Assembly (NCBI RefSeq): GCF_029318635.1
Contig: NZ_CP119676.1
Coordinates: 884,614 to 948,613 of the forward strand
Direction: 5' to 3'
DNA length: 64,000 nt
DNA from: Varunaivibrio sulfuroxidans
Lineage (GTDB): Bacteria > Pseudomonadota > Alphaproteobacteria > Rhodospirillales > Magnetovibrionaceae
How positions within the stretch are numbered: position 1 is the first letter of the stretch; every line of letters begins with the position of its first letter. The notes below the pieces were generated by a model, which was not told the DNA's origin, made no database searches, and saw only the letters and a program-made list of their open reading frames with translations. This document shows positions 41,355 to 57,225 of this stretch, piece after piece. A program made the translations under genes and the position numbers.

Positions 41355-43637
41355 CTATCCCTTAAGGCCCTTGTACGTATCCGGAGAAAAGACATCAACC
41401 TGGATAACTTCCCAGCGCGCCTCTTCGGCGTCTTTGAGTTTCTGCGCTTCGTCGTCGTCGATCAGATCCGCCGCCTTCGCCTGATCGATCATATCCTCTA
41501 TCGGTCCCCTTTTCAGCGTTTTCCCACGGACCGCGGCCTGAATTTTTTTGCGCGTCGCATCCGTGGCCAGGATTTTATCCAGCGTCGCCTCAAGTCGGCC
41601 GAGGCCGTTTTTTTCGGCTTCGGGGATATGAATATCGGGGCTCAATTTTTCCCGCACCGAACTTCCGTCCGTAAGACTTCCGGCGACAGTTCTCGAAAGC
41701 GCGTCATTGACGGGTGCATAGCGCCCTCCCAGGGGGAAAATCACGACGCGCAGAAGTACGCGCGCCCACCACAGCGGAAAATTTCGCACCGCGGCGAGCA
41801 GGGCCTGTTCGCTCTGGAATAAGGCGTGCTCACATGCCCATCGCAAATGGGGCAATTGCGATGGCGGGCGTCCGTCGTCGTGAAATTGTTTGAGGGCGGC
41901 GCTGGCCATATACATCCAGGCCAACACATCGGCCATCCGCCCGGAAAAGCTTTCCTTGCGCTTCAGTGCGCCCCCCAAACTCATCAGGGCGACATCGGTG
42001 GCGAAGGCGAACCCGGCGCTGAGCCGGGTCAGGCGGCGATAATACTTCGCCTCGGGTCCCATCACCGGGGAATCTGCGAACATCGCCCCGCTAACGGCAT
42101 GGCCGAACGCCCGTCCCGCATTCTTGAAGATATGCAAGATATGACCAAAGAACGCTCGGTCGAAGGCCTCCATATCTTTGGCGGCGATCGCCTGGATTTC
42201 ATCTTGCACATAGGGATGACAGCGCATCGCCCCCTGACCGAAAACGATCAGCGAGCGCGTTAAAATATTCGCCCCCTCCACCGTGATCGCCACCGGGACG
42301 CCCAAATAACCCCGGCCCAAGATATTGCGCGGCCCCCGACAAATTTCGGCGCCGCCGCGAATATCCATGGCGTCGTTGACGCGATCGCGCATGCCCGCCG
42401 TCAGGTACGCCTTGACGATGGCCGAGATCACCGCCGGTTTTTCCCCGGCATCGACCGCGCCCGCCGTCAACCGCCGGGCGGCGTTCATGAAGTAGGCATA
42501 CCCACCGATGCGCGCCAGGGCCTCCTGGACCCCTTCGAAGCGCCCGATCGGCAGGCCGAATTGTTCGCGCACCACGCCATAGGCGCCGGCCACGCGGGCC
42601 GCCAGTTCGACCGCCCCCACCGAGAGCGCGGGCAGTGAGATCGAGCGTCCCGCCGCCAGACTTTCCATCAGCATGCGCCAGCCCTGGCCGACCCCTTCAC
42701 GCTCGCCGATCACGAATTCCAGGGGGATAAAGACCCCCTTGCCGCGCACCGGGCCGTTGTGAAAGGGCACCCCCATGGGATCGTGATGATCGCCGATTTC
42801 CAATCCTTTCAGCTTGCGCGGCAACAAGGCGCAGGTGATGCCCAGGTCCTCGACATCGCCGAGCAACCCGTCGGGATCATAGGCGCGAAACGCCAGACCG
42901 ATCACGGTCGCAACCGGGGCCAGCGTAATATAGCGCTTATCGAAATCGAGGCGCAGCCCCAAGACCTGCTTGCCGCCGTAACGCCCCTTGGCGACGACGC
43001 CCCGGCTGGCCCCGTTGGCGGCGTCGCTGCCCGCGCCCGGTTCGGTCAGGGCGAAGCAGGGAATATCGTCCCCGCTGGCCAGCTTCTTCAGGTATTTGTC
43101 CTTTTGCGCTTGTGTTCCATAGTGCACCAGCAATTCACCCGGCCCCAAGGAATTGGGCACCATCACGGTCACCGCGGCGGCGCTGCTGACGCTGGCGATC
43201 TTGGTCACCACGGCGGAATGGGCGATCGCCGAAAAGCCATGGCCGCCATATTCCTTGGGAATGATCATGCCGAATAGGCGATGTTTCTTGATCAACGCCC
43301 AGGCCTCGGGCGGCAGGTCCCGATCCTGGGCGATTAGCCAATCGTCCAGGGCGCGGCAAAATTCCTCGACCGGGCCGTCGAGATAGGCTTGTTCCTCGGC
43401 GCTAAGCCCCTGCGACGTAAAGGCGAGCAGCTTTTTCCAATCGGGTTTGCCGGAAAACAGATCGCCATCCCACCACACGGTGCCGGCCTCCAGGGCGATC
43501 CGTTCGGTCTCTCCGATGGCGGGCAACATGCGCCCGACCAAACGCATCAGCGGCGCCGAAATCAACGAGATGCGAAACGACGACACCCCGAACACCACAA
43601 TCAAGGCTATGACGATTACAATCACTATCCAGGTCAT
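41355..43637 (-). CDS. fadE: acyl-CoA dehydrogenase, FadE type
   Basis: A 760-residue protein with an N-terminal membrane anchor (TWIVIVIVIALIVVFGV). The dehydrogenase core follows: LFGMIIPKEYGGHGFS, FALTEPGAGSDAANGA (FAD/substrate site), VVREQFGLPIGRFEGVQEALA and DIRGGAEICRGPRNILGR. A long C-terminal extension of about 200 residues matches FadE of E. coli (814 residues). Oxidises acyl-CoA at the first step of beta-oxidation. The start at 43637 has AGGAGG six bases upstream; a longer frame to 43661 does not. It is the last gene of the fatty-acid cluster. Confidence 0.92.
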   Translation of the reverse strand: MTWIVIVIVIALIVVFGVSSFRISLISAPLMRLVGRMLPAIGETERIALEAGTVWWDGDLFSGKPDWKKLLAFTSQGLSAEEQAYLDGPVEEFCRALDDWLIAQDRDLPPEAWALIKKHRLFGMIIPKEYGGHGFSAIAHSAVVTKIASVSSAAAVTVMVPNSLGPGELLVHYGTQAQKDKYLKKLASGDDIPCFALTEPGAGSDAANGASRGVVAKGRYGGKQVLGLRLDFDKRYITLAPVATVIGLAFRAYDPDGLLGDVEDLGITCALLPRKLKGLEIGDHHDPMGVPFHNGPVRGKGVFIPLEFVIGEREGVGQGWRMLMESLAAGRSISLPALSVGAVELAARVAGAYGVVREQFGLPIGRFEGVQEALARIGGYAYFMNAARRLTAGAVDAGEKPAVISAIVKAYLTAGMRDRVNDAMDIRGGAEICRGPRNILGRGYLGVPVAITVEGANILTRSLIVFGQGAMRCHPYVQDEIQAIAAKDMEAFDRAFFGHILHIFKNAGRAFGHAVSGAMFADSPVMGPEAKYYRRLTRLSAGFAFATDVALMSLGGALKRKESFSGRMADVLAWMYMASAALKQFHDDGRPPSQLPHLRWACEHALFQSEQALLAAVRNFPLWWARVLLRVVIFPLGGRYAPVNDALSRTVAGSLTDGSSVREKLSPDIHIPEAEKNGLGRLEATLDKILATDATRKKIQAAVRGKTLKRGPIEDMIDQAKAADLIDDDEAQKLKDAEEARWEVIQVDVFSPDTYKGLKG

Positions 43638-43657
43638 TCGACCCTCCTTCTGTCGTC

Positions 43658-45943
43658 TCAATTGCGCAGCGGTTTTCCGGTCTTAAGAATATGCGCGATC
43701 CGGGCGCGGGTCTGGGGGGTATGCGCCAAGCGTAACAGCGCATCGCGTTCCAGGTCCAGAACACGGTCCGCTTCAAGCGGTTCCGTCATATCGCAATCGC
43801 CGCCGCTGAGCACCCGCGCCAACTGCAAGGCGACCGTTTCATCATGCGCCGTCGCCAAGCCGCGCTTGACGAAATCGTGGATCGCCAAGACCAAGGCCGC
43901 CTTCCCCGTCGGTCCGGGCAAAACCAAGGGCTGTGGAGCGGGCGGCATATAGCCCTCGACCATCTTCAGCGCCCTTTGTTTGGCGTCGAACAAGACCCGA
44001 TCCCGGTTCATGGTGGCCCCGTCGGTGGGGCGCAAGAAGCCCGCCTCGCGCGCCTGTTCGGCGGATTTGGCCACCGTCGCCGTGGCGATCAGTTCGAACG
44101 CCTTCATTACCGGCGGCATCGGTCCTCTGGGCGCGTTCTCGCGAACCGCCCAACGGGACAACATTTCCACACAGCCGCCCCAACCGGGGACGATACCAAC
44201 CCCGGCCTCGACCAACCCGATGTAGGTCTCACTATGGGCCTGTATCGCATCGCAATGCAACACGATCTCGCAACCGCCCCCCAGCGCCATCCCACTGGGC
44301 GCGGCGACAACCGGAAACGGCGCGTGTTTCAACGCCCGATAAACCCTCTGCCCCCGTTTCACCATCCAACGAACGAACGGCCACAGGCCGAATTTCCCGG
44401 CATAATGGAAAAGGCCGATATTCGCCCCGACGGAAAAATTCGCGCCCTCGTTATAGATCACCAGCGCGCGCGGTCCGATCTTCACCACGCGCGCGATCAT
44501 CGCCAACGTCAACGGGTTGATGGTGTTCATCTTGGAATGAAATTCCAGGCATAGCGCACCGTCTCCGATATCCCACAGGCTGGCGGAGCCGTTGGTCGCC
44601 AAAGGCCGGGTGCGGCGCTTGACGTCTTCCAACAGCAGAACTCCCGCCGGGCGCGTCACCGCGATATATCCAGACCCGTCGAAGCGGTGCAGGCGACCAG
44701 CCGAGACCCGGTAAAAACGGCCCTCGCCGACCGCGCTCAAAAAGGACGGTGGGGCGCTCAGGCGCTGCGCCAGCCAATGCGCCCCCAAGCGGTCGATCAA
44801 TTCAAACGGACCGTACTTCCAGTTATAGCCCAGACGCATGGCGCGATCGACGGCATCGATATCATCGCCGATTTCGCCGATCAGCGCCGCCGCGTAGGAC
44901 AGCGTCTTGCCGATCACGGAAAAGGCGTAACGTCCCTCCGGGCTATCGTGGGACATCATCGCCCTGAGGGCGCCCTTGCCCTTTTTCGCCTTAGCCGCCT
45001 TCACCGCCGCCGGAACGGGTCTTTGCGCCGGGCCGTAGGCGCCGGTAGCGAGATCGATCACCTCTTTTTCACGTTTTGCGTTGAGACGATAAAACCCCCC
45101 CTTCCCTTTACGCCCCGTATACCCATCGTCAATCATACGGGACAGGATGTCGGGCGCCTTTCCCAGGGCGTGAAAGGCGTCATCGGACGGAAGGGCGTTT
45201 TCCAAACTGCCCAGAACATGGGGCATCAAATCGAGCCCAACCAGATCGAGCAAGCCGAATACGCCTGTTTTCGGAATGCCCATCGGCCGACCGATGAGGG
45301 CGTCGGCGGTTTCGACATCAATGCCCTGGGCGATCGCCTCGGTCACCGCGCAATGCAGCCAATAGGTTCCAATCCGGTTGGCGATGAAGCCCGGCGTATC
45401 CCGACATGCGATCACCGATTTTCCCATCTTCTGGTCGGCGAAGTTGACCACGGTGTTGATGGCCTCCTGCGCCGTATCCGCCCCCTTGACGATCTCCAAA
45501 AGGCGCATATAGCGCGGCGGATTGAAAAAATGGGTGATTAAAAAGCGTTGCCGGAACGATGGCGGCAAACCTTCGCAGAGCACCGCCAAAGGCAAGGTCG
45601 AGGTGTTCGAAGAGACGATCGCGCCGGGTTTACGCACCGTTTCGATGCGTGCGTAAAGGTCGCGCTTGATGGCGGCGTCCTCGATGACCGCCTCGATAAT
45701 CCAGTCGCAATCGGCAAGCAAATCGAAATCGTCCTCGATACTTCCCGGCGTGATGCGCGCGGCGAAACGTTTGCTCATCAAGGGCGCGGGGTCGGTCTTC
45801 GCCAAGCGGTCGATCGCCTTTCGCGCCGCCCCCGGAACGACGTCGAGAAGCACCACAAGGGCCCCCGCGTTGGCGCCGTGGGCGGCGATCGCCGCCCCCA
45901 TCACGCCGGCGCCGATCACCGCGATTTTTTCAATCTCGGCCAT
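43658..45943 (-). CDS. 3-hydroxyacyl-CoA dehydrogenase/enoyl-CoA hydratase
   Basis: A 761-residue two-activity protein. The NAD-binding domain comes first (IAVIGAGVMGAAIAAHG, with IVSSNTSTLPL and THFFNPPRYM) and the helical dehydrogenase domain follows (DTPGFIANRIG). An enoyl-CoA hydratase/crotonase-like part is at the C-terminal side (LVIYNEGANFSVGANIG, APSGMALGGGCEI). This order is reverse to FadB and typical of many alphaproteobacteria. The ATG at 45943 overlaps the thiolase stop (TAATG). A longer frame into the thiolase gene is spurious. Confidence 0.92.
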   Translation of the reverse strand: MAEIEKIAVIGAGVMGAAIAAHGANAGALVVLLDVVPGAARKAIDRLAKTDPAPLMSKRFAARITPGSIEDDFDLLADCDWIIEAVIEDAAIKRDLYARIETVRKPGAIVSSNTSTLPLAVLCEGLPPSFRQRFLITHFFNPPRYMRLLEIVKGADTAQEAINTVVNFADQKMGKSVIACRDTPGFIANRIGTYWLHCAVTEAIAQGIDVETADALIGRPMGIPKTGVFGLLDLVGLDLMPHVLGSLENALPSDDAFHALGKAPDILSRMIDDGYTGRKGKGGFYRLNAKREKEVIDLATGAYGPAQRPVPAAVKAAKAKKGKGALRAMMSHDSPEGRYAFSVIGKTLSYAAALIGEIGDDIDAVDRAMRLGYNWKYGPFELIDRLGAHWLAQRLSAPPSFLSAVGEGRFYRVSAGRLHRFDGSGYIAVTRPAGVLLLEDVKRRTRPLATNGSASLWDIGDGALCLEFHSKMNTINPLTLAMIARVVKIGPRALVIYNEGANFSVGANIGLFHYAGKFGLWPFVRWMVKRGQRVYRALKHAPFPVVAAPSGMALGGGCEIVLHCDAIQAHSETYIGLVEAGVGIVPGWGGCVEMLSRWAVRENAPRGPMPPVMKAFELIATATVAKSAEQAREAGFLRPTDGATMNRDRVLFDAKQRALKMVEGYMPPAPQPLVLPGPTGKAALVLAIHDFVKRGLATAHDETVALQLARVLSGGDCDMTEPLEADRVLDLERDALLRLAHTPQTRARIAHILKTGKPLRN

Positions 45944-47082
45944 TACACCCGCTCCATCACCGTGGCGATCCCCTGTCCGCCGCCGATACATTGCGTCGCC
46001 AGCGCCCAACGCCCCCCGGTGCGCCCAAGAAGCGCCGCCGCCTTGCCCGTAATCCGCGCCCCCGTCGCCCCCAGGGGATGGCCCAGGGCCAAGGCCCCGC
46101 CGTCGAGGTTGACCTTCGCCGCGTCCAGGCCCAACTCCCGGATCGAGGCGATCGATTGCGAGGAAAACGCCTCGTTCAATTCGACGACATCCACATCGCC
46201 GACCTCGATCCCGGCCCGCGCCAGCGCCTTGCGCGAAGACTCGACAGGGCCGATCCCCATAATTTCCGGGGCGCAGCCCGAGGTCGCTATCCCACGCACG
46301 TAAGCGAGCGGTTCGAGACCGTATTTTTCGGCGTACTCGGCGCTGCACACCAGTACCGCCGTCGCGCCATCGGTCAACGGCGAAGCGGTTCCCGCCGTCA
46401 CCACCCCGTTTTGGTCGAACGCCGGTTTCAGGGTGCTCAGACCTTCCATGTCGGTGCCGGGACGGATACAGCCGTCGGCTTCGACGCGCGCGCCGCCCGG
46501 AGTCGTGATCGAGACAATTTCGTCGCGCAACAATCCGCCTTCCTGAGCGGCGGCGGCCTTGCGGTGGCTTTCAACGGCGAAGCGGTCCTGCGCGTCGCGC
46601 CCAATATCCCATTTCGCCGCGACGTTTTCCGCCGTTTCCCCCATCGACATGTAGGCCTGGGGGTAGCGTTCGGCCAATCCGGGATGGGGCATCGGATTAA
46701 AACCGGTCATTGGAATCCGGCTCATCGATTCGACCCCGGCGCAGATAAACGCCGCGCCAGCGTTCATCTGGATCGCCCCCGCGGCGATATGGATCGCCTG
46801 CATCGACGATCCGCAAAAGCGGTTGACCGTCATCCCCGATACCGAAAGCGGAAGATCGGCGAGAAACCCAACCAAACGACCGATATTGAAACCTTGCTCA
46901 CCTTCGGGAAAGGCGCACCCCAAAATCAAATCTTCGATACTGTCGGGAGCGACGCCGGTGCGCACCATCAGAGCGCGGACGACCTGGGCGGCCAGGTCGT
47001 CGGGTCGGGTTTTCACCAACGCGCCCTTGTTGGCGAAAGTAAACGGTGAGCGGACATAGGCCGCAATCACGACAGGTTTCAT
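45943..47082 (-). CDS. acetyl-CoA acyltransferase (thiolase)
   Basis: A 379-residue thiolase for the last step of beta-oxidation. The nucleophile is C90 in VNRFCGSS; the His is in ALGHPLGATGARI; the second Cys is in QCIGGGQG. N-terminal VIAAYVRSPFTFANKG fits the FadA/FadI group. AAGGAG lies ahead of the start. Its stop overlaps the start of the dehydrogenase/hydratase gene, so the two are translationally coupled. Subunit composition cannot be told from sequence. Confidence 0.94.
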   Translation of the reverse strand: MKPVVIAAYVRSPFTFANKGALVKTRPDDLAAQVVRALMVRTGVAPDSIEDLILGCAFPEGEQGFNIGRLVGFLADLPLSVSGMTVNRFCGSSMQAIHIAAGAIQMNAGAAFICAGVESMSRIPMTGFNPMPHPGLAERYPQAYMSMGETAENVAAKWDIGRDAQDRFAVESHRKAAAAQEGGLLRDEIVSITTPGGARVEADGCIRPGTDMEGLSTLKPAFDQNGVVTAGTASPLTDGATAVLVCSAEYAEKYGLEPLAYVRGIATSGCAPEIMGIGPVESSRKALARAGIEVGDVDVVELNEAFSSQSIASIRELGLDAAKVNLDGGALALGHPLGATGARITGKAAALLGRTGGRWALATQCIGGGQGIATVMERV

Positions 47083-47148: not shown

Positions 47149-48840
47149 TTATTCCGGCGCGTCGTTCGGGTTTCGATTTTTCGCCTTTTCCTCGTGCACC
47201 AGTTCTTTTTTCGAGAGTTTTCCGATCAAGGTCTTCGGCAGTTCGTCGCGGAACGCAATCTCGGCCGGACGCTCCATCGGCGTCAGATGCTCGCCGACGA
47301 AGACCTTCAGGGCTTCTTCGTCCACCGCCGCGCCCGGGCGCACTTTGACAAAAGCCTTGGGCACTTGGCCGCGCAGAGGATGATCGATGGCGATGACCGT
47401 CGCTTCCTCAACCTCGGGGTGACGCATCAACACCTCCTCGATATTGCGCGGGTAGACTTTATACCCTCCGGTGATAATGATGTCCTTCAGGCGATCGATC
47501 AAGAAAACATAACCGTCCTCATCCATATAACCGACATCGCCCGTCCTCAACCATTCTCTGTCCAAAACCTGCTGCGTCGCCGCGGTATTTTGCCAGTATC
47601 CGACCATCACCTGGGGGCCGCGAACGACGATTTCGCCTTTTTTTCCGCGTTCCAAAACAACGGTGGGGTCTTCCAGGTCGCGCACCTCGATATCGGTCCC
47701 CGCCAACGCGGGGCCGATCGATCCTGCTTTTTGCACCCCGTCCGGTGGGTTGAACGACACCACCGGCGAGGCTTCGCTGAGGCCATATCCTTCGATCAAG
47801 GGACACCCGGTCAGTCCCTCAAACGTTTCCTTCACCGCCAACGGCAGCGGCGCGCCGCCCGACACGCAATGGCGCAACGAACTGAAATCATGGTTCCGCA
47901 CACGGGGATGGCCCGCCAACGCAGCGTAAACCGTGGGCACGGCGGCGATCAACGTCGCCTTCTTGCGCGAGATCGCCTTCAACAATTGGTCGGCGTCGAA
48001 CCTGGGCAATAAGATAAGCTGCGATCCCGTGGCGATCCCCAAATTCATCAACACGGTCATGGCGTAGACGTGAAAGAACGGGATCACGGCGACAAATTTT
48101 TCCTGACCGTCGCACAGCGCCCCCAGCAAAATACGCACCTGCGCCGTATTCGCACGGAGATTGTAGTGGCTCAGCATCGCCCCCTTGGGGGCGCCGGTGG
48201 TGCCGCCAGTATACTGGATCACCGCAAGATCGCGCCTAGGATCAATCGCGGGCGGCGTGAAAACGCCATCGTTATGGATCAGGGCGTCGAACGCAATATG
48301 CCGTCCGTCTTTGGGCATGGCGGCGATTTCCCGGCGCTTGAAAATCGAAAACAGCCCCTTTTTAACGAAGGGCAAGGCGGCGGCGAACCGACAGACGACA
48401 ATCTTGCCGACATTGCTTTGCGTCACCTTGGACAGCACCGTTTGAAGGTCGAGCGTCAACATGATTTGAATTTTCGAATCGCGGACCTGAAAATCGATTT
48501 GCTCGGCGCTGTACAGTGGGTTGAAGTTGACCACCGTCCCTCCCGCTTTCAAGATCGCGAAATAACCGATCACATAGTAAGGACTGTTGGGCAGACACAA
48601 CCCGACATTGACGCCGCGCCCCACGCCCAAAGACATCAACCCCTTGGCCGCACGATCGACACGCCGGGCGACGGCCCGATAGTTCATGGTGCGACCGAGA
48701 AAATCCAGACATGGCCGGTGCGGCCAGCGGGCCGCGGCATCGTCGAAAATAGCGTGCAGGGGGCCATTCGGAACACGAAATTCCCGCCCGCCGGTATCCG
48801 GCGTTTCGGGTGCGTCCGAGATATTGCTATCGTGCGTCAT
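47149..48840 (-). CDS. fadD: long-chain acyl-CoA synthetase
   Basis: A 563-residue AMP-forming ligase that activates fatty acids with CoA. The P-loop is YTGGTTGAPKGAMLSH; further motifs are GYGLSEASP and TGDVGYMDEDGYVFLIDR with LKDIIITGGYKVYP. The start has GGGAGG five bases upstream. The gene stands 84 bases after the acyltransferase/hydrolase gene and 66 before the thiolase gene. It fits the feeding step for the beta-oxidation genes downstream. Confidence 0.93.
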   Translation of the reverse strand: MTHDSNISDAPETPDTGGREFRVPNGPLHAIFDDAAARWPHRPCLDFLGRTMNYRAVARRVDRAAKGLMSLGVGRGVNVGLCLPNSPYYVIGYFAILKAGGTVVNFNPLYSAEQIDFQVRDSKIQIMLTLDLQTVLSKVTQSNVGKIVVCRFAAALPFVKKGLFSIFKRREIAAMPKDGRHIAFDALIHNDGVFTPPAIDPRRDLAVIQYTGGTTGAPKGAMLSHYNLRANTAQVRILLGALCDGQEKFVAVIPFFHVYAMTVLMNLGIATGSQLILLPRFDADQLLKAISRKKATLIAAVPTVYAALAGHPRVRNHDFSSLRHCVSGGAPLPLAVKETFEGLTGCPLIEGYGLSEASPVVSFNPPDGVQKAGSIGPALAGTDIEVRDLEDPTVVLERGKKGEIVVRGPQVMVGYWQNTAATQQVLDREWLRTGDVGYMDEDGYVFLIDRLKDIIITGGYKVYPRNIEEVLMRHPEVEEATVIAIDHPLRGQVPKAFVKVRPGAAVDEEALKVFVGEHLTPMERPAEIAFRDELPKTLIGKLSKKELVHEEKAKNRNPNDAPE

Positions 48841-48924
48841 GACATCCTCCCGAACCCTCTTTCACGTTTTATAAGTAAGGCGTCTTCTTACGAAGACGAG
48901 CGATCCTTGAGCCCACCCCTGAAA

Positions 48925-51222
48925 TTACGATGTCCCACTGTCGTCGGCCTCCCAGGGTAGCCCCTTCAAAAAATTCGCGACCCGATCCTGAGCGCCCGCG
49001 ATATCTTCCAATAATATGGCATGACGGGTGGAGGGAACGTAAACAAGCGTCTTTTGCGAGCTGCCTAGCCGATCGTGAATGAGCGTCGCGCTTTCGGGAT
49101 CGACGACCGGGTCGCGATCTCCTTGCACAATCAGCGCCGGGCACCGTACCGTGGGTAAAACATGCCGGGTTTCCTCCACCAATTGACGCAATTCGTAAAC
49201 GCCACGCGTCGGGATGTTTTTGTAATTTATCTCGGGATGTTCACTCGCGTTTTCATGAAAGGGCATGACGCCATCGAAAGACGGCAACCATTCGGTCAGG
49301 GTATTCAGACGGTGCACCAGAGGCACGAACGCCATGCGCCGGTCCAAGAAGCGCATCGGCGCGCTGACCACGGCGACGCCCACCAGGGAACGCGGCGCCT
49401 CGCTGGCCAGACGTAACGCCAAAACCCCACCGCCGGAAAATCCGACCACGGCGATTTTTTCGCAAAACGCACCCAATATGGCGCAGCCCCGGCGCACCGA
49501 TTGGAGCCACTCGCGCCAGCTTCGGTGCTGCAAATCCCAAGGTGACGTGCCGTGTCCCGCCAGCCGCACCCCGATCACGGGATGCCCCTTTTGCACCAAT
49601 TTTTCACCGAAGGCGCGCATTTCCGCGGGCGAGGCAAGGAAACCATGAACCAGAACGACGCCGACCGCCGTGATCTCTTTTGGGATCAGCAGAAAAGGCT
49701 CCCCTGAAAGTGTCGCGGTTTCCTTGGCGTTAATCTCGTGGTGGCGTTCCCCCCGATAGTGCGCGTGGTTCCACTGGTGCGCGCGCAATTCGTCGTCGAA
49801 TTGGTCGGACGCCAATTCTTCATCTAGCACCCGTCCCGCCCTTTCGAGGGCGTCGTTCAGGGTCGCGCGGACGGCGGCGATGGGGGCGACCTCGTTGGCG
49901 TAGACCATGATCGGATTGTCAATCCTGATCCGATCGAACGTGCTGTCCGCACTTAAGCTATCCAAAAAACGATACTTGCTTGGCGTCCGTCCGATTAGGC
50001 CGGCCTGTTTGGTGGTCCTGAGAAACTGTTCCAGGGCGTCGCACTGTCCGTCGAGCAAACCACGATAGCTTTCGGGCGCGAGCAGGCTGCGGTGCAGGCC
50101 CACGCCTTCGGCGTTTTGCAGGTTTTTGATGGCCAGATAGAGCGCCTTGTGAAATTCTTCCTTACCGATTTCCCGTCGCCCGGCGGCGACCAGATCTACA
50201 ATCAGGCGTGAGGCGAGGTGGCTGAAATTCACCGTCGTCACCGAATACATCCCGGCCATGTAGGCGTCGCGGATGCGCATCGTTTCGTCCTGTATACAAC
50301 GGTTCATCATTTTTTCCGCCCAACCGACCGCCCCGTCGCGCATGGCGAACAGTTCCTCCAAGGAATCGATACGCTCAAACACGGATTTCAACAGGACGCG
50401 TTCCCACCAGCGCCATTTTTTAGCGGCCATCACCGGTGGCGCAAAGCGGATGTCCATGTCGGTGTCTTTCAGCAGAATATTGCCCTCGATCAGCAACTCT
50501 TCGGAAAAACGCCCCGACATGTCTTTCATCAACAATTCCATGCCCCGATGGAGAATATTCTCCGTCACCCTTAGAGGGTAAAACGTGATGTTGGCGGGCA
50601 CGATCATCGTCGGCTCGCGGGCGCGTTCGAGAAGCTGATCGACGCTCTCCAAGCCCAAGGCGTCCACCCACCTGTGAAGGCGCTCTTCCTCCGCGTGTGC
50701 GTGGACGCTGAGAATGCGATTCTTGAAGGTATCGAGAGTCAAGGCGATCACCGCCGCCCCCCGGTGGTGCTTGCGCCGTTCTTGGGCGACCGGCGAATAA
50801 ACATTGTAGGCCCCCCTTTTATCGAGGACGCGGCGGTCTTTGATCATGCCCCCCTCGGGGAACACGACGATCTTGCGCCCGCGCAAGATTTCGGCGGCCA
50901 AAAACGGCATCAAACCGGCGGTTGTGTTGGGAACCCCCCCGACGCCACGCAGGAATTTCGCGAACATCTCGCTGCCCTCAAAGAGGGTGTGATCGGCGAC
51001 CGAACGGCAATACCGCCCACTGTGCTTATAGACGAGATACGGTGGAATGACCGTTTCGAAACGGGCGAAATGATTGAACAGAAAAATTTGCCCCTGAGCA
51101 AGAAGTTCGGGGGACGAATGCAGTTTTATTTTCAGGCCGAGGTGCCGTTCCAGGCGTGAAAAGGCGCCGACACACCATTCGTAAACACTGGTATTGATCC
51201 TGTAGGCTTCGAGATCGACCAT
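48925..51222 (-). CDS. acyltransferase-alpha/beta hydrolase fusion
   Basis: A 765-residue bifunctional protein. The N-terminal part (about 40-300) is a PlsC-like acyltransferase: FNHFARFETV (HX4E in place of HX4D) and VFPEGGMIKDRR. A helical middle part resembles lipid-related glycerol-phosphate acyltransferases. The C-terminal part (about 540-760) is an alpha/beta hydrolase with VVLVHGFLASPAEM, nucleophile motif GFSGGG, Asp in GDRDPVVD and His in RHAILLED. The start at MVDLEAYR (51222) is chosen by domain fit, with a weak ribosome-binding site; a frame to 51327 exists. It may recycle acyl groups of membrane lipids and feed the following fadD. Function inferred. Confidence 0.82.
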   Translation of the reverse strand: MVDLEAYRINTSVYEWCVGAFSRLERHLGLKIKLHSSPELLAQGQIFLFNHFARFETVIPPYLVYKHSGRYCRSVADHTLFEGSEMFAKFLRGVGGVPNTTAGLMPFLAAEILRGRKIVVFPEGGMIKDRRVLDKRGAYNVYSPVAQERRKHHRGAAVIALTLDTFKNRILSVHAHAEEERLHRWVDALGLESVDQLLERAREPTMIVPANITFYPLRVTENILHRGMELLMKDMSGRFSEELLIEGNILLKDTDMDIRFAPPVMAAKKWRWWERVLLKSVFERIDSLEELFAMRDGAVGWAEKMMNRCIQDETMRIRDAYMAGMYSVTTVNFSHLASRLIVDLVAAGRREIGKEEFHKALYLAIKNLQNAEGVGLHRSLLAPESYRGLLDGQCDALEQFLRTTKQAGLIGRTPSKYRFLDSLSADSTFDRIRIDNPIMVYANEVAPIAAVRATLNDALERAGRVLDEELASDQFDDELRAHQWNHAHYRGERHHEINAKETATLSGEPFLLIPKEITAVGVVLVHGFLASPAEMRAFGEKLVQKGHPVIGVRLAGHGTSPWDLQHRSWREWLQSVRRGCAILGAFCEKIAVVGFSGGGVLALRLASEAPRSLVGVAVVSAPMRFLDRRMAFVPLVHRLNTLTEWLPSFDGVMPFHENASEHPEINYKNIPTRGVYELRQLVEETRHVLPTVRCPALIVQGDRDPVVDPESATLIHDRLGSSQKTLVYVPSTRHAILLEDIAGAQDRVANFLKGLPWEADDSGTS

Positions 51223-51360: not shown

Positions 51361-52509
51361 TTAAAAATCTTCTGTGCTACCGCGCCGCCCGATGGTCACG
51401 TCACGATGGACGTGCACGCCCAGCAGCAAGCCGAAACCAATCAACAACGTCAGCATGGCCGTCCCGCCGTAGCTGATCAGCGGCAGCGGCACGCCGACCA
51501 CCGGAATGAGACCCATGACCATGGCGATATTGATGAAGACATAGAGAAAAAACGTGGTGCTGACCCCCATCGCCACCATCCGGCCGAAGTGGCTGCGCGC
51601 GCCCAGCGCTATGGCAAAGCCATAGATGACGATCAAAGTGTACAACGCCAGAAGCGTAAGCCCGCCGATCATTCCGAATTCTTCGGCCAGCATGGTGAAA
51701 ATAAAGTCGGTTTGTTTTTCCGGTAAGAAGTTGAGGTGACTTTGACTGCCCATCAAAAATCCCTTGCCAAAGACCCCCCCCGAACCGAAGGCAATCTTGG
51801 ATTGGATGATATGGTATCCGGCGCCCAGGGGATCGTTTTCCGGGTTAAGGAAGGTCAGTACCCGCTGTTTTTGATATTCGTGCAGAAAATGCCAGCCGAC
51901 AGGAGCGGAAATCAAGGCGATCAGGGCGACCACGGCGAACATCCACATGCGCACCCCGGCGACGAAAAAAATGGCGGCGCTGGCCAACAACAGCATTACC
52001 GTGGTGCCCAGGTCGGGTTGACGCAAAATCAACGCCGCCGGCCCAAGCACGATCATGATCGGAGGCAGTAAAAATAAGGGTTGGCGAATTTCGTCCACCG
52101 AGGCGCCGTGAAAATAACGCGCTAACGTCAAGACCATCGCGATCTTCATCAACTCGGACGGCTGCAGGTTGAACGCCCCGAGGTTGATCCAGCGCTGCGC
52201 CCCCATGCCGACGTACCCCGCGACATCGACCGCAATCAGCAAAAACAGGGCGATGCTGTAAATCACATAGGCATAGCGCATCCAAATACGAATATCGATC
52301 AGCGCGACGCCAATCATCAATACGAAGCCGACGGCGAACCGCAGCATCTGGCGCGACGCCCACGGATTGAAACTTCCGCCGCCCGCCGAATATAGCATAA
52401 CAAAGCCAATGCTCGCGGTTAGCACCAAAAGCAGAACGAAAAACCAGTGGATATGCAGAAGCTTTTGCCCGACGGTCATCTGCGATTGGGTAAAACGGCT
52501 GGAATGCAT
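51361..52509 (-). CDS. rodA: rod-shape SEDS glycosyltransferase RodA
   Basis: A 382-residue polytopic peptidoglycan polymerase of the SEDS family, with about ten membrane segments. Signature stretches are GAQRWINLGAFNLQPSELMKI, RQPDLGTTVMLL, ENDPLGAGYHIIQSKIAFGSGG, and PLPLISYGGTAMLT. The start is MHSSRFTQSQ at 52509, four bases after the mrdA stop. It works with PBP2 in side-wall growth. Last gene of the mre operon. Confidence 0.96.
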   Translation of the reverse strand: MHSSRFTQSQMTVGQKLLHIHWFFVLLLVLTASIGFVMLYSAGGGSFNPWASRQMLRFAVGFVLMIGVALIDIRIWMRYAYVIYSIALFLLIAVDVAGYVGMGAQRWINLGAFNLQPSELMKIAMVLTLARYFHGASVDEIRQPLFLLPPIMIVLGPAALILRQPDLGTTVMLLLASAAIFFVAGVRMWMFAVVALIALISAPVGWHFLHEYQKQRVLTFLNPENDPLGAGYHIIQSKIAFGSGGVFGKGFLMGSQSHLNFLPEKQTDFIFTMLAEEFGMIGGLTLLALYTLIVIYGFAIALGARSHFGRMVAMGVSTTFFLYVFINIAMVMGLIPVVGVPLPLISYGGTAMLTLLIGFGLLLGVHVHRDVTIGRRGSTEDF

Positions 52510-52513
52510 AGCG

Positions 52514-54418
52514 TTACCCCTTGGACTCGGCGCGATGATAATTCCTCGCGTCTTGTTCAATGACCGCCGGGCGCGCGGACTTGCGTTTTTGCGCCTCCAA
52601 CAGCACGTCACGGGCGATGGGCGCGGCGGTCGATGACCCGCCGCCACCGTGTTCGACGACCACCGACACCGCATAACGGGGCGCATGGACCGGCGCATAG
52701 GCGACAAAAAGCGCGTGATCGCGCGCCAGCCAAGCCAAATCCTTGTTCTTGCGCACCCCCTGTTCGCGTTCGAGTTTGGTGATTCTACGCACCTGAACGG
52801 TGCCGGATTTTCCCGCCATCTCCATTCCCGCGATATCAATCCGCGAGCGATGCGCCGTTCCATGAGGGGAACTGACCACGGCCGTCATCCCGTCAAGGAC
52901 CACTTTCAGATGGTCGGGATCGAGTCCGACCGAGGGGAAATCGCCACTTTTACGCGGCGTCACCTTTTCCGGGGTCACGATATCGTGCGCCAGATGCGGA
53001 GTCACCGCGATCCCGCCATTGGCCAAACGCGCCGTCATCACCGCCAATTGCAGGGGGGTCGTCAGAACATAACCCTGCCCGATTCCCGCGATCAAGGTTT
53101 CCCCCGTTTGCCACGGCGTGCCCATGGCGCCCATTTTCCATTTGCGGGTCGGCATCAGGCCTGTGTTCTCTCCAGGCAGGTCGATCCCCAACTTGGCGCC
53201 CATCCCCAATCGATTGGCCATCGCCGAGATGGCGTCGATACCCAGCCTACGCGCCACTTCGTAAAAATAAACGTCACACGATTGAGTGATCGCCTTTCTC
53301 ATATCCACCCGACCGTGTCCGGACCTTTTCCAGCAATGAAAAACGGCGTTGCCCAGGGTCAATGAGCCCGAACAAAACAGCTCGTTGGTCGAGGAAATCA
53401 CCCCCTTTTCCAAAGCCGCCAACGCCACCACCATCTTGAAGGTCGATCCCGGAGAATATTGCCCGGCGATCGCCTTATTGGTCAGTGGCGCCATCGGGTT
53501 GGAAACCAAGTCCTGCCATTCCTGGTTGGACAATCCGCGATTGAACGCGTTGGGGTCGAAACTGGGTGTCGAAGACATCGCCAGGACGCCTCCGGTATGA
53601 ATGTCCAACACCACGCACGCCGCGCTCTGTCCGGCCAATCGTTTGTTGACCATGCGCTGGAGTTCGATATCAATGGTCAATTGCAGATCGACGCCGGGCT
53701 GACCTTCCTGGCGCGATAATTCGCGGATTACTCGACCGAGAGCATTGACCTCGACCTGGGAGCTGCCCCCCGTACCCCGCAGCGCCAAATCGTAAACCTT
53801 CTCGACGCCTGCCTTGCCGATGCGAAATCCCGGCAATTCCATCAACGGGTCGGAGTTGATATCCTTTTCGCTGACGCTGGAAACATAACCGATAACATGG
53901 GCGACTTCTCGCCCGTCGATATATTTCCGGCTTTGCCCTTCGTCGATCATGACGCCGGGAAGATCCGGCGTGTTGACCTCTATGCGCGAGACCTCGTTCC
54001 AATCCAAATTATCGCGTACCGTAACCGGAACGAACGCCCGTTTACGACGAATTTCACGCAAAATCCGTCGTTTATCGCTGGGGCTGATGGCCACGATTTG
54101 GCCCAGACGCTCCAACGTCATCTCGACGCTCGGTGTTTGCTCGGGCACGAGAACGGAACGGTAGTTCTGGCGATTAACCGCCAGAGGCCGACCAAAGCGA
54201 TCGACGATGGGGCCTCGGGGTGGAAGCAGAAGGCGAAGGTTAATCCGGTTCTCATCGGCCAGAGTGGCGTAACGGGCGGCTTCGACCACCTGCAAATAAT
54301 ACATGCGTCCGACCAACCCGGACAGCAGCAACACCTTTCCCCCCGCCAGCAGGGCGACGCGTCGGTTGAACAGTTTCAGTCGCTCGGAATCTCTGTGCAT
54401 GACCACGTCCCCGCTCAC
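52514..54418 (-). CDS. mrdA: penicillin-binding protein 2 (elongasome transpeptidase)
   Basis: A 634-residue transpeptidase with one N-terminal membrane segment (LLAGGKVLLLSGLVGRMYYL), a dimerisation domain and a transpeptidase domain. S325 is the active Ser in SPGSTFK; SCD is the SxN-like motif; KSGT is the KTG motif. Partner of RodA. The start used is GTG at 54418, directly after the mreD stop; an ATG at 54400 (MHRDSERLK) with GGGGA upstream is equally credible. Part of the five-gene mre cluster. Confidence 0.96.
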   Translation of the reverse strand: MSGDVVMHRDSERLKLFNRRVALLAGGKVLLLSGLVGRMYYLQVVEAARYATLADENRINLRLLLPPRGPIVDRFGRPLAVNRQNYRSVLVPEQTPSVEMTLERLGQIVAISPSDKRRILREIRRKRAFVPVTVRDNLDWNEVSRIEVNTPDLPGVMIDEGQSRKYIDGREVAHVIGYVSSVSEKDINSDPLMELPGFRIGKAGVEKVYDLALRGTGGSSQVEVNALGRVIRELSRQEGQPGVDLQLTIDIELQRMVNKRLAGQSAACVVLDIHTGGVLAMSSTPSFDPNAFNRGLSNQEWQDLVSNPMAPLTNKAIAGQYSPGSTFKMVVALAALEKGVISSTNELFCSGSLTLGNAVFHCWKRSGHGRVDMRKAITQSCDVYFYEVARRLGIDAISAMANRLGMGAKLGIDLPGENTGLMPTRKWKMGAMGTPWQTGETLIAGIGQGYVLTTPLQLAVMTARLANGGIAVTPHLAHDIVTPEKVTPRKSGDFPSVGLDPDHLKVVLDGMTAVVSSPHGTAHRSRIDIAGMEMAGKSGTVQVRRITKLEREQGVRKNKDLAWLARDHALFVAYAPVHAPRYAVSVVVEHGGGGSSTAAPIARDVLLEAQKRKSARPAVIEQDARNYHRAESKG

Positions 54419-54934
54419 CTACACCATTGCCAGAACGGACCGTTGCCAACGCAGTAAAAGCCACGCGACGAGAGGGAAAAAACCCACCGTCAGGAGGTAC
54501 TGGAAGACCATCGGCCAAACACCGATCAACGATGTGTAATACAGAGACATCACCACCCAAAACATAAGCTGCGTGCCCGCCGCCACCAAGGCGAAGCCTA
54601 ACCAGTGAATGGCGAACGATTTCCCCGTGAAAAAGACCTGCTGACTGAGCACCATGATATGAACCATCAAAAACACCAGGACGCTCACGCCCATCGGAAG
54701 GCCGACGAGGGCGTCCTGCAACACACCCAGGGCGAAGACGGCATACACCGGCAACAATTGAGGGCGATAAATCGTCCAGTGGTAGATCGCCATGATCGGC
54801 AGCACCGGCGCAACCTCCGGCAACCCGGGGATGCGCACGGGAATAACGTTCAAGATCACCGTCAAAACGGCAAGCGCAAAGGGCGTAAGACGGCGCAGCA
54901 TGGCGTCCATGCGCTGAAATAAAGTCGATCTCAT
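54419..54934 (-). CDS. mreD: rod-shape protein MreD
   Basis: A 171-residue hydrophobic protein with about five membrane segments. PEVAPVLPIMAIYHWTIYRP and ALGVLQDALVGLPMGVS are the MreD pattern. It links MreB/MreC with the cell-wall machinery. The start MRSTLFQRMD is chosen; a longer frame is not supported. It lies ten bases after mreC. Confidence 0.92.
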   Translation of the reverse strand: MRSTLFQRMDAMLRRLTPFALAVLTVILNVIPVRIPGLPEVAPVLPIMAIYHWTIYRPQLLPVYAVFALGVLQDALVGLPMGVSVLVFLMVHIMVLSQQVFFTGKSFAIHWLGFALVAAGTQLMFWVVMSLYYTSLIGVWPMVFQYLLTVGFFPLVAWLLLRWQRSVLAMV

Positions 54935-54944
54935 TTTTTTTGGC

Positions 54945-55832
54945 TCATCGCTTTTGGCCGCTTTTCGGCGCCAGGGTGGACGACGAGACATCCAAAACAC
55001 CCCGCAGGCCATAATCGACGACCCGCACGTACTCCAGGCGGTAGCGATCGACAAAGGGCTGAACCACGATCGACTGCTCATCGACCGCCGCCACCAACCC
55101 CACGGGAAGACCGGGAGGGAAAGCCCCCCCGCTTCCCGAGGTGACGATGCGATCGCCGGGCGATACCGTCCCCCCCGGGGGAAGATGAATAAGGGTGGGA
55201 CGGCTGGTATTGTCGCCGGCCAGGATCGCGCGCGTACGCGACGCGGATATGAGCACCGGAATTCGAGAGTTCAAGTCGGTCAGCAAAAGGATCCGGGACG
55301 ACCGCCTGCCGACATCAACGATGCGCCCCACCAAGCCGTCGCCGTTGACCACCGCCAGTCCTTTGCGCACGCCGTCGCGCCGTCCGGCGTTGACAAGCAA
55401 GCTGTTGGCGAACGCCCCGCCGGTATCGGCGACCACCCGCGCGGCGATATACGTGGCCGCGCCCTCGGGCACGTAATGCAGCAGAGCTTTGAGACTGCGG
55501 TTTTCCGCTTCGACGGCGCGGGCGACCTCTTGCCACTGCAACAAGCGGGCGCGCTCTTCGCGAAGGCGCGCATTCTCGGCGCGCACCGACATCAACTCGC
55601 GCAGCTGATTGCTCCAATGATTGACGTTGGCGATCGGCCGCGACACGACATCCAGGACCGGCGAGAAGGCGTCGGAAATCAAGACGCGCATGCGATCAAC
55701 CACATTGACGTCGGCCTTGGCCATGAAAATCAGGGCGATGGCGACCACGACCAGCAGCGCCGAAGCAACATTATGCTGCGCCCCTCGCGCGGAGGGGGAA
55801 ATACCGTGTCCGAATCGTGGGCGAGATTTCAA
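54945..55832 (-). CDS. mreC: rod-shape protein MreC
   Basis: A 295-residue periplasmic protein with an N-terminal membrane segment (VASALLVVVAIALIFMA), a coiled-coil (about 78-115, rich in Arg, Glu and Leu) and the beta domain (GRRDGVRKGLAVVNGDGLVG, VTSGSGGAFPPGLPVG). It starts with TTG at 55832 after AGGGGG. A mini reading frame of 17 codons (55882-55829, MYRNTFERFA then RSGQGVP) ends in a TGA that overlaps the TTG, which may couple translation. Confidence 0.93.
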   Translation of the reverse strand: MKSRPRFGHGISPSARGAQHNVASALLVVVAIALIFMAKADVNVVDRMRVLISDAFSPVLDVVSRPIANVNHWSNQLRELMSVRAENARLREERARLLQWQEVARAVEAENRSLKALLHYVPEGAATYIAARVVADTGGAFANSLLVNAGRRDGVRKGLAVVNGDGLVGRIVDVGRRSSRILLLTDLNSRIPVLISASRTRAILAGDNTSRPTLIHLPPGGTVSPGDRIVTSGSGGAFPPGLPVGLVAAVDEQSIVVQPFVDRYRLEYVRVVDYGLRGVLDVSSSTLAPKSGQKR

Positions 55833-56178
55833 GGCACCCCCTGTCCGCTGCGCGCGAACCGTTCAAAGGTGTTACGATACATATCCGTCGTAACGATAGT
55901 CACGATCGGTTGACACCACGTTAACATACGATGGCAAAACAGAAAAAGTACGGCGCCCGGCTTTTTTCAGGCCCCGAATTTTTTCGGGCCAGGCCATAAC
56001 AAAACCATGCTGTCCATTATGGCTTTTTATCGTGGCCGTTTTAAGGCGTCGTTCACTTCCCCATGCGAATTCTTCCCCCCCACGCGGCCCCTTCGCCGGT
56101 GCGATCCATTTGAGAAATCGCCTCCCCGCGCAAGGCGCGCCGGCACGCGCCCCCGAAAATCCCCGCGCCGAGATCGGA
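55833..56178. other. mreB-mreC gap with a mini reading frame
   Basis: About 346 bases without a long gene between two genes normally close together. It holds the 17-codon frame overlapping the mreC TTG start and may hold a second promoter for mreCD-mrdA-rodA. No clear terminator was seen. Confidence 0.5.

Positions 56179-57225
<1,047 letters not shown>

Follow-up and report, generated by a model that had tools for sequence, protein, structure and literature searches.

Gene organization of the locus

The window, i.e., the whole stretch of 64,000 nucleotides of Varunaivibrio sulfuroxidans DNA analysed here, carries a set of five beta-oxidation genes in the order fusion gene, fadD, thiolase gene, fadB and fadE. 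These genes, and the protein features located below, lie on the minus strand. The fusion gene (48925-51222) starts with an ATG at 51222, has its stop codon ending at 48925, and encodes a protein of 765 aa composed of an acyltransferase, a middle domain and a hydrolase similar to monoacylglycerol lipases (MGL). It is followed by fadD for a long-chain acyl-CoA ligase (47149-48840), the gene for a thiolase, acetyl-CoA C-acyltransferase (45943-47082), and fadB (43658-45946), all three assigned by Pfam and NCBIfam, and then by fadE for an acyl-CoA dehydrogenase (41355-43661, from the putative TTG start of the listed ORF). The start of fadB at 45946 is presumed, and its open frame extends to 46348. 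A preliminary description of this DNA had given identical limits for the fusion gene and had placed it at the head of a beta-oxidation cluster, and both statements agree with the present reading; fadE, absent from that description, makes the set complete.

The gaps are 84 bp between the fusion gene and fadD and 66 bp between fadD and the thiolase gene, and overlaps of 4 bp were found between the thiolase end and the presumed fadB start and between fadB and the listed fadE ORF. Based on these short gaps and overlaps on one strand, we infer that the five genes are probably co-transcribed.

Directly upstream of the fusion gene, on the same strand, is rodA. The combination of rodA and pbp2 upstream of the fusion operon (cf. 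positions 51361-57219 of the window) was also seen in loci L067 and L079, at distances of 2.7 and 4.1 kb, respectively, in two genomes from one other family; in L067, mreB, mreC and mreD were also upstream.

A perfect 7-bp inverted repeat, CGTCTTC-4-GAAGACG, is situated between the fusion gene and fadD (48881-48898). It was the sole match in the window at up to 2 mismatches, with 0.26 expected and at least one match in 26 of 100 shuffles, and is possibly an operator or attenuator, or a product of chance. A promoter scan found 2 candidates against a shuffle mean of 3.9, i.e., no excess, and terminator-like sites numbered 18 against 13.7 (sd 3.5) in shuffles.

Domains of the fusion protein

In the Pfam search, residues 41-161 (50740-51102) matched PF01553 (Acyltransferase) with 25.7 bits, over the gathering cut-off of 23, and residues 522-739 (49006-49659) matched PF12146 (Hydrolase_4) with 81.7 bits against a cut-off of 27. 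The middle domain, for which we set the borders at residues 266-505 (49708-50427), matched no Pfam family at its cut-off, and no AMP-binding match was obtained with the fusion protein of the window. With NCBIfam, the whole protein had no listed family at its cut-off, and its N-terminal 500 residues gave zero matches at E 0.01. The sequence NHFARFE (HX4E) occupies residues 50-56 and GFSGGG residues 594-599, so that the two-domain composition and both motifs reported in the preliminary description were found where they had been claimed. Homologues of about 710-780 aa, with 26-65% identity and the same layout, occur in two phyla, indicating that the fusion is not a chance product, as judged from sequence.

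The closest solved relatives of the hydrolase in sequence searches were bacterial MGLs and Est30-type carboxylesterases. In the structure model of the full-length protein, the hydrolase region was better than the poor N-terminal half and was the only region relied on; it gave VIA Z scores of about 29 with up to 32% identity, and a Foldseek E-value of 3e-17. The domain has the MGL fold with a Ser-Asp-His triad. This fold does not fix the substrate, and the carboxylesterase 1r1d matched equally well (Z 29.6). The C-terminal 260 aa thus share fold and triad with the MGLs of Bacillus sp. H257 and Geobacillus (PDB 3rm3, 4ke6, 5xks). In contrast to these, which are separate proteins of about 250-270 aa, the domain here is fused behind an acyltransferase, and its catalytic serine is missing in 2 of 50 family members (see below).

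Distribution of the fusion

Genomes were sampled from the relatives, class and phylum of the window genome, from the Sulfurimonas family and from an order of another class, and the samples overlap (shared genomes: the window genome, G045, G062, G075 and G619). With the fusion protein as the query, 45 of 100 relatives matched at E 0.001, including 28 full-length fusions (the window genome among them), 16 matches to the hydrolase part only, and one split gene. The split gene, in G017, was read as two overlapping pieces or adjacent ORFs and may reflect a frameshift or an assembly error. A 12-row profile gave matches in 17 of 385 alphaproteobacterial genomes (E 1e-40), in 4 of 119 genomes from one order in a different class of this phylum, the four belonging to a single genus, and in 6 of 398 genomes of the phylum sample (E 1e-30). 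Five of these six were full-length; the sixth (L049 in G480) was a stand-alone hydrolase and was excluded from the fusion count. In the Sulfurimonas family, 21 of 101 genomes matched at E 1e-30, with 15 as one near-full-length match, four of which were flagged with one stop within the match. A contig scan gave five loci, four from Sulfurimonas (26-27% identity) and one, L004, from an uncultured Rhodospirillales bacterium (65%), which is the named locus closest to the window.

Whole-genome sampling covered the phylum of the window and the Sulfurimonas family. Within this range, the fusion occurs in scattered alphaproteobacterial families, one genus of another class, and Sulfurimonas relatives (Campylobacterota). 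As to the domain survey proposed in the preliminary description, the acyltransferase-hydrolase layout recurs in two phyla among these samples. One alphaproteobacterial member, L073 (genome G447), grouped with the Campylobacterota rows (support 99), where it forms a long branch, and its operon is rearranged; from this tree position and operon, gene transfer is possible.

In a search of plasmids, 155 records matched, none across more than 80% of the query; in each of the 20 listed, the match lay from residue 442 onward. A search of 200 genomes for N-terminal halves occurring on their own gave two fusions (one being that of the window) and two marginal matches (E 2e-4 and 5e-4); the longest ORF at the second marginal locus (L095) encodes an acyltransferase-AMP-ligase protein.

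Conservation of the beta-oxidation operon

Besides that of the window, 49 fusion loci were read. They were drawn from overlapping samples: 14 of the 27 other full-length relatives, 14 of the 16 others of the class, G619 of the phylum sample, the 3 others of the other-class order, 12 of the 21 Sulfurimonas-family genomes, and the 5 contig-scan loci. With neighbours called by BLAST at 80 bits or more, fad genes accompanied the fusion in 39 of the 49. In 37 loci, two or all three of thiolase, fadB and fadE lay on the same strand as the fusion; L150, close to a contig end, had fadE alone beside it, and L065 was linked solely through its fused FadD. No fad neighbour was called in the remaining ten (L004, L005, L050, L059, L060, L063, L076, L153, L154 and L155), including two (L005 and L063) in which contig ends cut the informative side. 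Since L004 and L050 are the nearest relatives of the window on the tree, loss or displacement of the link occurs even among close relatives.

Two gene orders were observed. In Alphaproteobacteria, the order is fusion-(fadD)-thiolase-fadB-fadE, with fadD and thiolase on the opposite strand in L073. In the Sulfurimonas group and 2 of the 4 other-class loci, the order is (fadD)-thiolase-fadB-fadE-fusion, with the fusion gene last. Thirteen loci from Sulfurimonas and its family (L006, L007, L008, L144-L149, L151, L152, L157 and L158) contain thiolase-fadB-fadE-fusion, fadE being called in loci of this type by Pfam plus BLAST, and fadD opens the operon in six of the thirteen. Split genes, as two adjacent ORFs, were noted for fadB in L149 and for thiolase in L151, from a frameshift or an assembly error. 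The same gene content in two opposite orders argues for a functional link between the fusion and the fad genes, beyond inherited position alone.

Natural fusion to FadD

The counterpart of the fadD product is part of the fusion protein in four relatives. In L053, L054, L065 and L068, the fusion continues into FadD as a single ORF, with AMP-binding and AMP-binding_C matches following Hydrolase_4 in all four (Pfam); at the E-values applied, PF01553 was listed for just two of them, L065 and L068. The ORFs of L054, L065 and L068 are 1317-1397 aa long, and that of L053, whose N-terminus is cut by a contig end, has a minimum length of 1216-1283 aa, according to which start codon is taken. The ligase part of L054 matched NCBIfam models for long-chain-fatty-acid-CoA ligase below the cut-off. 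Three of the four loci have a beta-oxidation operon setting.

These members form two pairs, each within one family, and the pairs fall in different supported clades of a 50-row tree, which was built by a 'quick' method, with SH-aLRT as its sole measure of support, after the FadD-fused group had been named. The label requires two changes on the tree when all 50 rows are labelled and one when 26 unlabelled rows are not counted. A single clade of the four was rejected by the AU test (p 6e-60). The pattern fits two fusion events, or a transfer plus a fusion; repeated fission of an ancestral three-part protein, which would require a larger number of steps, is also possible.

Conservation of catalytic residues

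In an alignment of 50 members, the putative catalytic dyad H51-x4-E56 (HX4E, 51055-51072) was found in 49 of 49 readable members, and N50, H51, R54, E56 and T57 were each present in 49 of 50 with one gap. The gap at N50-T57 was taken to be L053, which lacks its N-terminus; L013, with the identical protein, has the gap as well. Motif 3, P122-E123-G124 (50851-50859), and the motif-4 proline P209 were invariant (50 of 50), and K128 was present in 49, with R in one. In the hydrolase, the nucleophile S596 in GFSGG (49435-49437) was S in 48 of 50, G in one and A in one, the triad acid D704 (49111-49113) was D in 48 and E in two, and H734 (49021-49023) was present in all 50. The catalytic residues of both domains, the dyad and the triad, are present in the window protein.

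The two serine losses, in L058 (GFG, genome G041) and L070 (GFA, genome G354), occurred in proteins with an intact acyltransferase dyad and in intact five-gene fad operons. Among 28 alphaproteobacterial rows (L053, L073 and L074 left out), the same two had the lowest ratios of hydrolase to acyltransferase identity, 0.729 and 0.753, the third-lowest, with the serine present, being 0.768; with ranks at random, occupation of the two lowest has a chance of 1 in 378, in a comparison made after the losses had been seen. We read this as relaxed constraint on the hydrolase, which is open to loss, and retention of the acyltransferase. With the dyad in all 49 readable members, and the serine lost in the two whose hydrolases have diverged most relative to their acyltransferases, the main function appears to be that of the acyltransferase, with the hydrolase as a dispensable accessory partner. 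The window protein has the residues for the deacylation postulated in the preliminary description, and the two serine losses, with dyad and operon retained, speak against an essential role of this half.

Nature of the N-terminal half

PF01553 matched 39 of 40 N-terminal halves at E-values up to 0.5. According to an excerpt of PMC8753187, AGPATs have the motifs xHxxxxD, GxxFxxR, xxEGxx and a proline, and motif 2 belongs to a set of four that glycerophosphate acyltransferases need for recognising the substrate and for activity. In the fusion family, motif 1 deviates in having Glu as its acid, with H-x4-E in each of the 49 readable members; an excerpt of PMC3087551 gives HX4E as the LpxM dyad. 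Motifs 3 and 4 are conserved in E123, G124 and P209. Motif 2 was absent from all 50 members, with P or S at the F position in every one and zero Arg at the R position among the 45 of 50 residues shown. Nine of ten PlsB-family control loci have this motif, the tenth having been read as a wrong ORF. At alignment residue 104, 21 of the 50 rows have Arg and 29 have Leu; in a set of twelve rows, Arg belongs to the Sulfurimonas-type, other-class and L073 members. This residue might be a displaced Arg of motif 2.

Structure models covering the N-terminal half had mean pLDDT values of 52 and 47. For the low-confidence model of residues 1-500 (mean pLDDT 47), the best VIA-align match was human GPAT1 (Z 9.2, rmsd 5.6), with 308 residues over model positions 7-453, spanning the acyltransferase and the middle domain; the next unrelated row scored 6.0 and squash GPAT 5.7, and models having no true match can reach Z 7-8 in this program, or 14 if helical. 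The top Foldseek match was this same GPAT1 entry (E 7e-3, probability 0.89). With the full-length model, GPAT was absent among the best 50 matches listed, because hydrolase matches fill the list. These matches are a lead towards a GPAT-like layout, as far as a low-confidence model can suggest one.

The sequence relationship to PlsB and GPAT was sub-threshold. Matches to GPAT_C, in one and the same part of the profile, were seen in only 2 of 40 members, the distant homologues L005 (16.9 bits) and L048 (13.9 bits), against a cut-off of 25. Profile-profile comparison of the N-terminal half with PlsB gave probabilities of 1.6 and 1.4, against 99.9 for a true GPAT-like control; the PlsB sets consisted of the longest ORF per locus, which for L086, if not for others, was the wrong one, slightly weakening the profiles. 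A search of the N-terminal profile against PDB sequences retrieved two unrelated chains (E 0.12).

In the window genome, no PlsB (TIGR03703) or GPAT_C (PF19277) match was found, and TIGR00023, which we take to be PlsY, was matched. Two other PF01553 proteins of this genome scored 74.5 and 65.3 bits, against 29.5 for the fusion, and one of them (L001) has the sequence NHVSYLD.

Compared with AGPAT/LPLAT proteins (PlsC, GPAT1, PlsB), the N-terminal half is alike in its PF01553 match over the cut-off and in H-x4-acid, xEG and Pro in this order; the low-confidence model adds a weak match that may point to a GPAT1-like fold. It differs in having E for D in motif 1, no motif 2, a middle domain with no family assignment, and no NCBIfam match at E 0.01. 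The term 'PlsC-like' in the preliminary description can be applied at the superfamily level only; motif 2 of PlsC/GPAT is missing, and the GPAT1 match was obtained on a low-confidence model.

Because Pfam, NCBIfam, profile-profile and fold comparisons were all sub-threshold or of low confidence, PlsB/GPAT membership was rejected as an assignment and kept as a rival. The N-terminal half would then be an acyl-CoA:glycerol-3-phosphate (or dihydroxyacetone phosphate) acyltransferase channelling FadD-made acyl-CoA into membrane lipids, bypassing PlsY, with the hydrolase trimming the products. The GPAT1 matches of both programs, the GPAT_C traces, and a genome having TIGR00023 but neither PlsB nor GPAT_C favour this route; we nevertheless consider it unlikely, given the low confidence of the model and the Z scores that models having no true match can attain, the two of 40 members with GPAT_C, the PlsB probabilities far below the control, and motif 2 in nine of ten controls and in none of 50 members.

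Proposed role of the fusion protein

By sequence, the protein joins an acyltransferase-superfamily domain to an MGL-type triad hydrolase and is tied genetically, and sometimes covalently, to FadD, thiolase, FadB and FadE. The reading we prefer, and to which we give an even chance, is that the beta-oxidation operon here includes a bifunctional enzyme of acyl exchange, acting between lipid esters and the FadD/beta-oxidation pool. FadD would make acyl-CoA, and the acyltransferase may shift acyl groups, in either direction, between CoA and an acceptor hydroxyl, probably that of a glycerolipid. An ester resembling a monoacylglycerol or a lysolipid would be cut by the MGL-like domain, and the fatty acid set free could be reactivated for FadE, FadB and thiolase by FadD, next to it or fused with it, so that the two domains jointly would set the esterified and burned shares of the acyl pool. 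Domains, residues, neighbourhood and FadD fusions in this scheme are observed, and the substrates, direction and coupling between the sites are presumed. The absence of motif 2, the ten of 49 loci having no fad neighbour, and the poor N-terminal models speak against it. The hand-over of fatty acids to FadD that the preliminary description suggested is favoured on its genetic side by the 39 of 49 loci with fad genes and by FadD fusion on two branches.

A neutral-lipid cycle, in which the acyltransferase would esterify glycerol, monoacylglycerol or another uncharged alcohol for storage and the MGL domain would mobilise the product for FadD and beta-oxidation, is in our view rather improbable. 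It would suit the MGLs as nearest hydrolase relatives, and the loss of motif 2 could mean an acceptor lacking phosphate, if the role given to this motif in the excerpt of PMC8753187 applies; the MGL fold, however, leaves the substrate open, with 1r1d matching as well. That the acyltransferase domain is non-catalytic, binding acyl chains or the membrane and docking lipase and FadD, is very unlikely: HX4E in place of HX4D and the missing motif 2 would agree with it, but across two phyla H, E, PEG and the motif-4 Pro do not vary and K128 hardly does, residue loss in two members hits the hydrolase instead, and HX4E serves as the dyad of LpxM (excerpt of PMC3087551).

An extension of the acyl-exchange reading, which we regard as tentative and somewhat doubtful, is a one-chain clearing house in which an acyltransferase, a lipase and, in two lineages, also an acyl-CoA ligase would convert a fatty acid between its ester, free and thioester forms and so choose between lipid and beta-oxidation, the acyltransferase-lipase arrangement being common to Alphaproteobacteria and Campylobacterota. 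With domains for attaching and cutting acyl groups, a fatty-acid-burning operon around them, and fusion to FadD in some relatives, the protein may be a point at which the choice between keeping and burning fatty acids is controlled. To our knowledge, the decision between the two is poorly resolved in bacteria beyond a few model species. The fusion offers one testable protein for it, with esterifying-type and de-esterifying-type domains inside a beta-oxidation operon and FadD fused on two branches. It also adds a beta-oxidation gene having no name as a unit in Pfam or NCBIfam, found even in relatives of Sulfurimonas, a genus usually described as chemolithoautotrophic.

Comparison with known systems

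A word search of the open-access literature (titles and abstract starts) revealed no acyltransferase-lipase fusion in a bacterial beta-oxidation operon among the matches listed. Both domains are of known kinds; the acyltransferase-middle domain-MGL architecture, its place in the operon and the three-part form with FadD were absent from these matches, which is weak evidence that the literature lacks them. In Aas, the 2-acyl-GPE acyltransferase/acyl-ACP synthetase, the acyltransferase is fused directly to the synthetase. The four FadD-fused members are similar in having an acyltransferase and an AMP-binding ligase in one protein, and differ in the MGL-like lipase between the two (L053, L054, L065 and L068), the CoA-ligase-type ligase (L054, below the cut-off), and the beta-oxidation operon in three of four. 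The plant phytyl ester synthases PES1 and PES2 have a hydrolase part, with the domain order reversed relative to the window fusion. They resemble it in an esterase/lipase-type family name (ELT family) and an acyltransferase domain, the latter being nearest to cyanobacterial MFAT and DGAT2 (excerpt of PMC12048435).

In Staphylococcus aureus, fadXDEBA is a complete beta-oxidation operon, for which the abstract of PMC12369327 describes no acyltransferase-lipase, and which has a FadB with an unusual orientation of its two domains. The domain orientation of FadB is shared: in the window FadB (43658-45946), the 3HCDH domains precede the crotonase domain, and the best-scoring model was Staph_FadB, at 471 bits, below its cut-off of 999.
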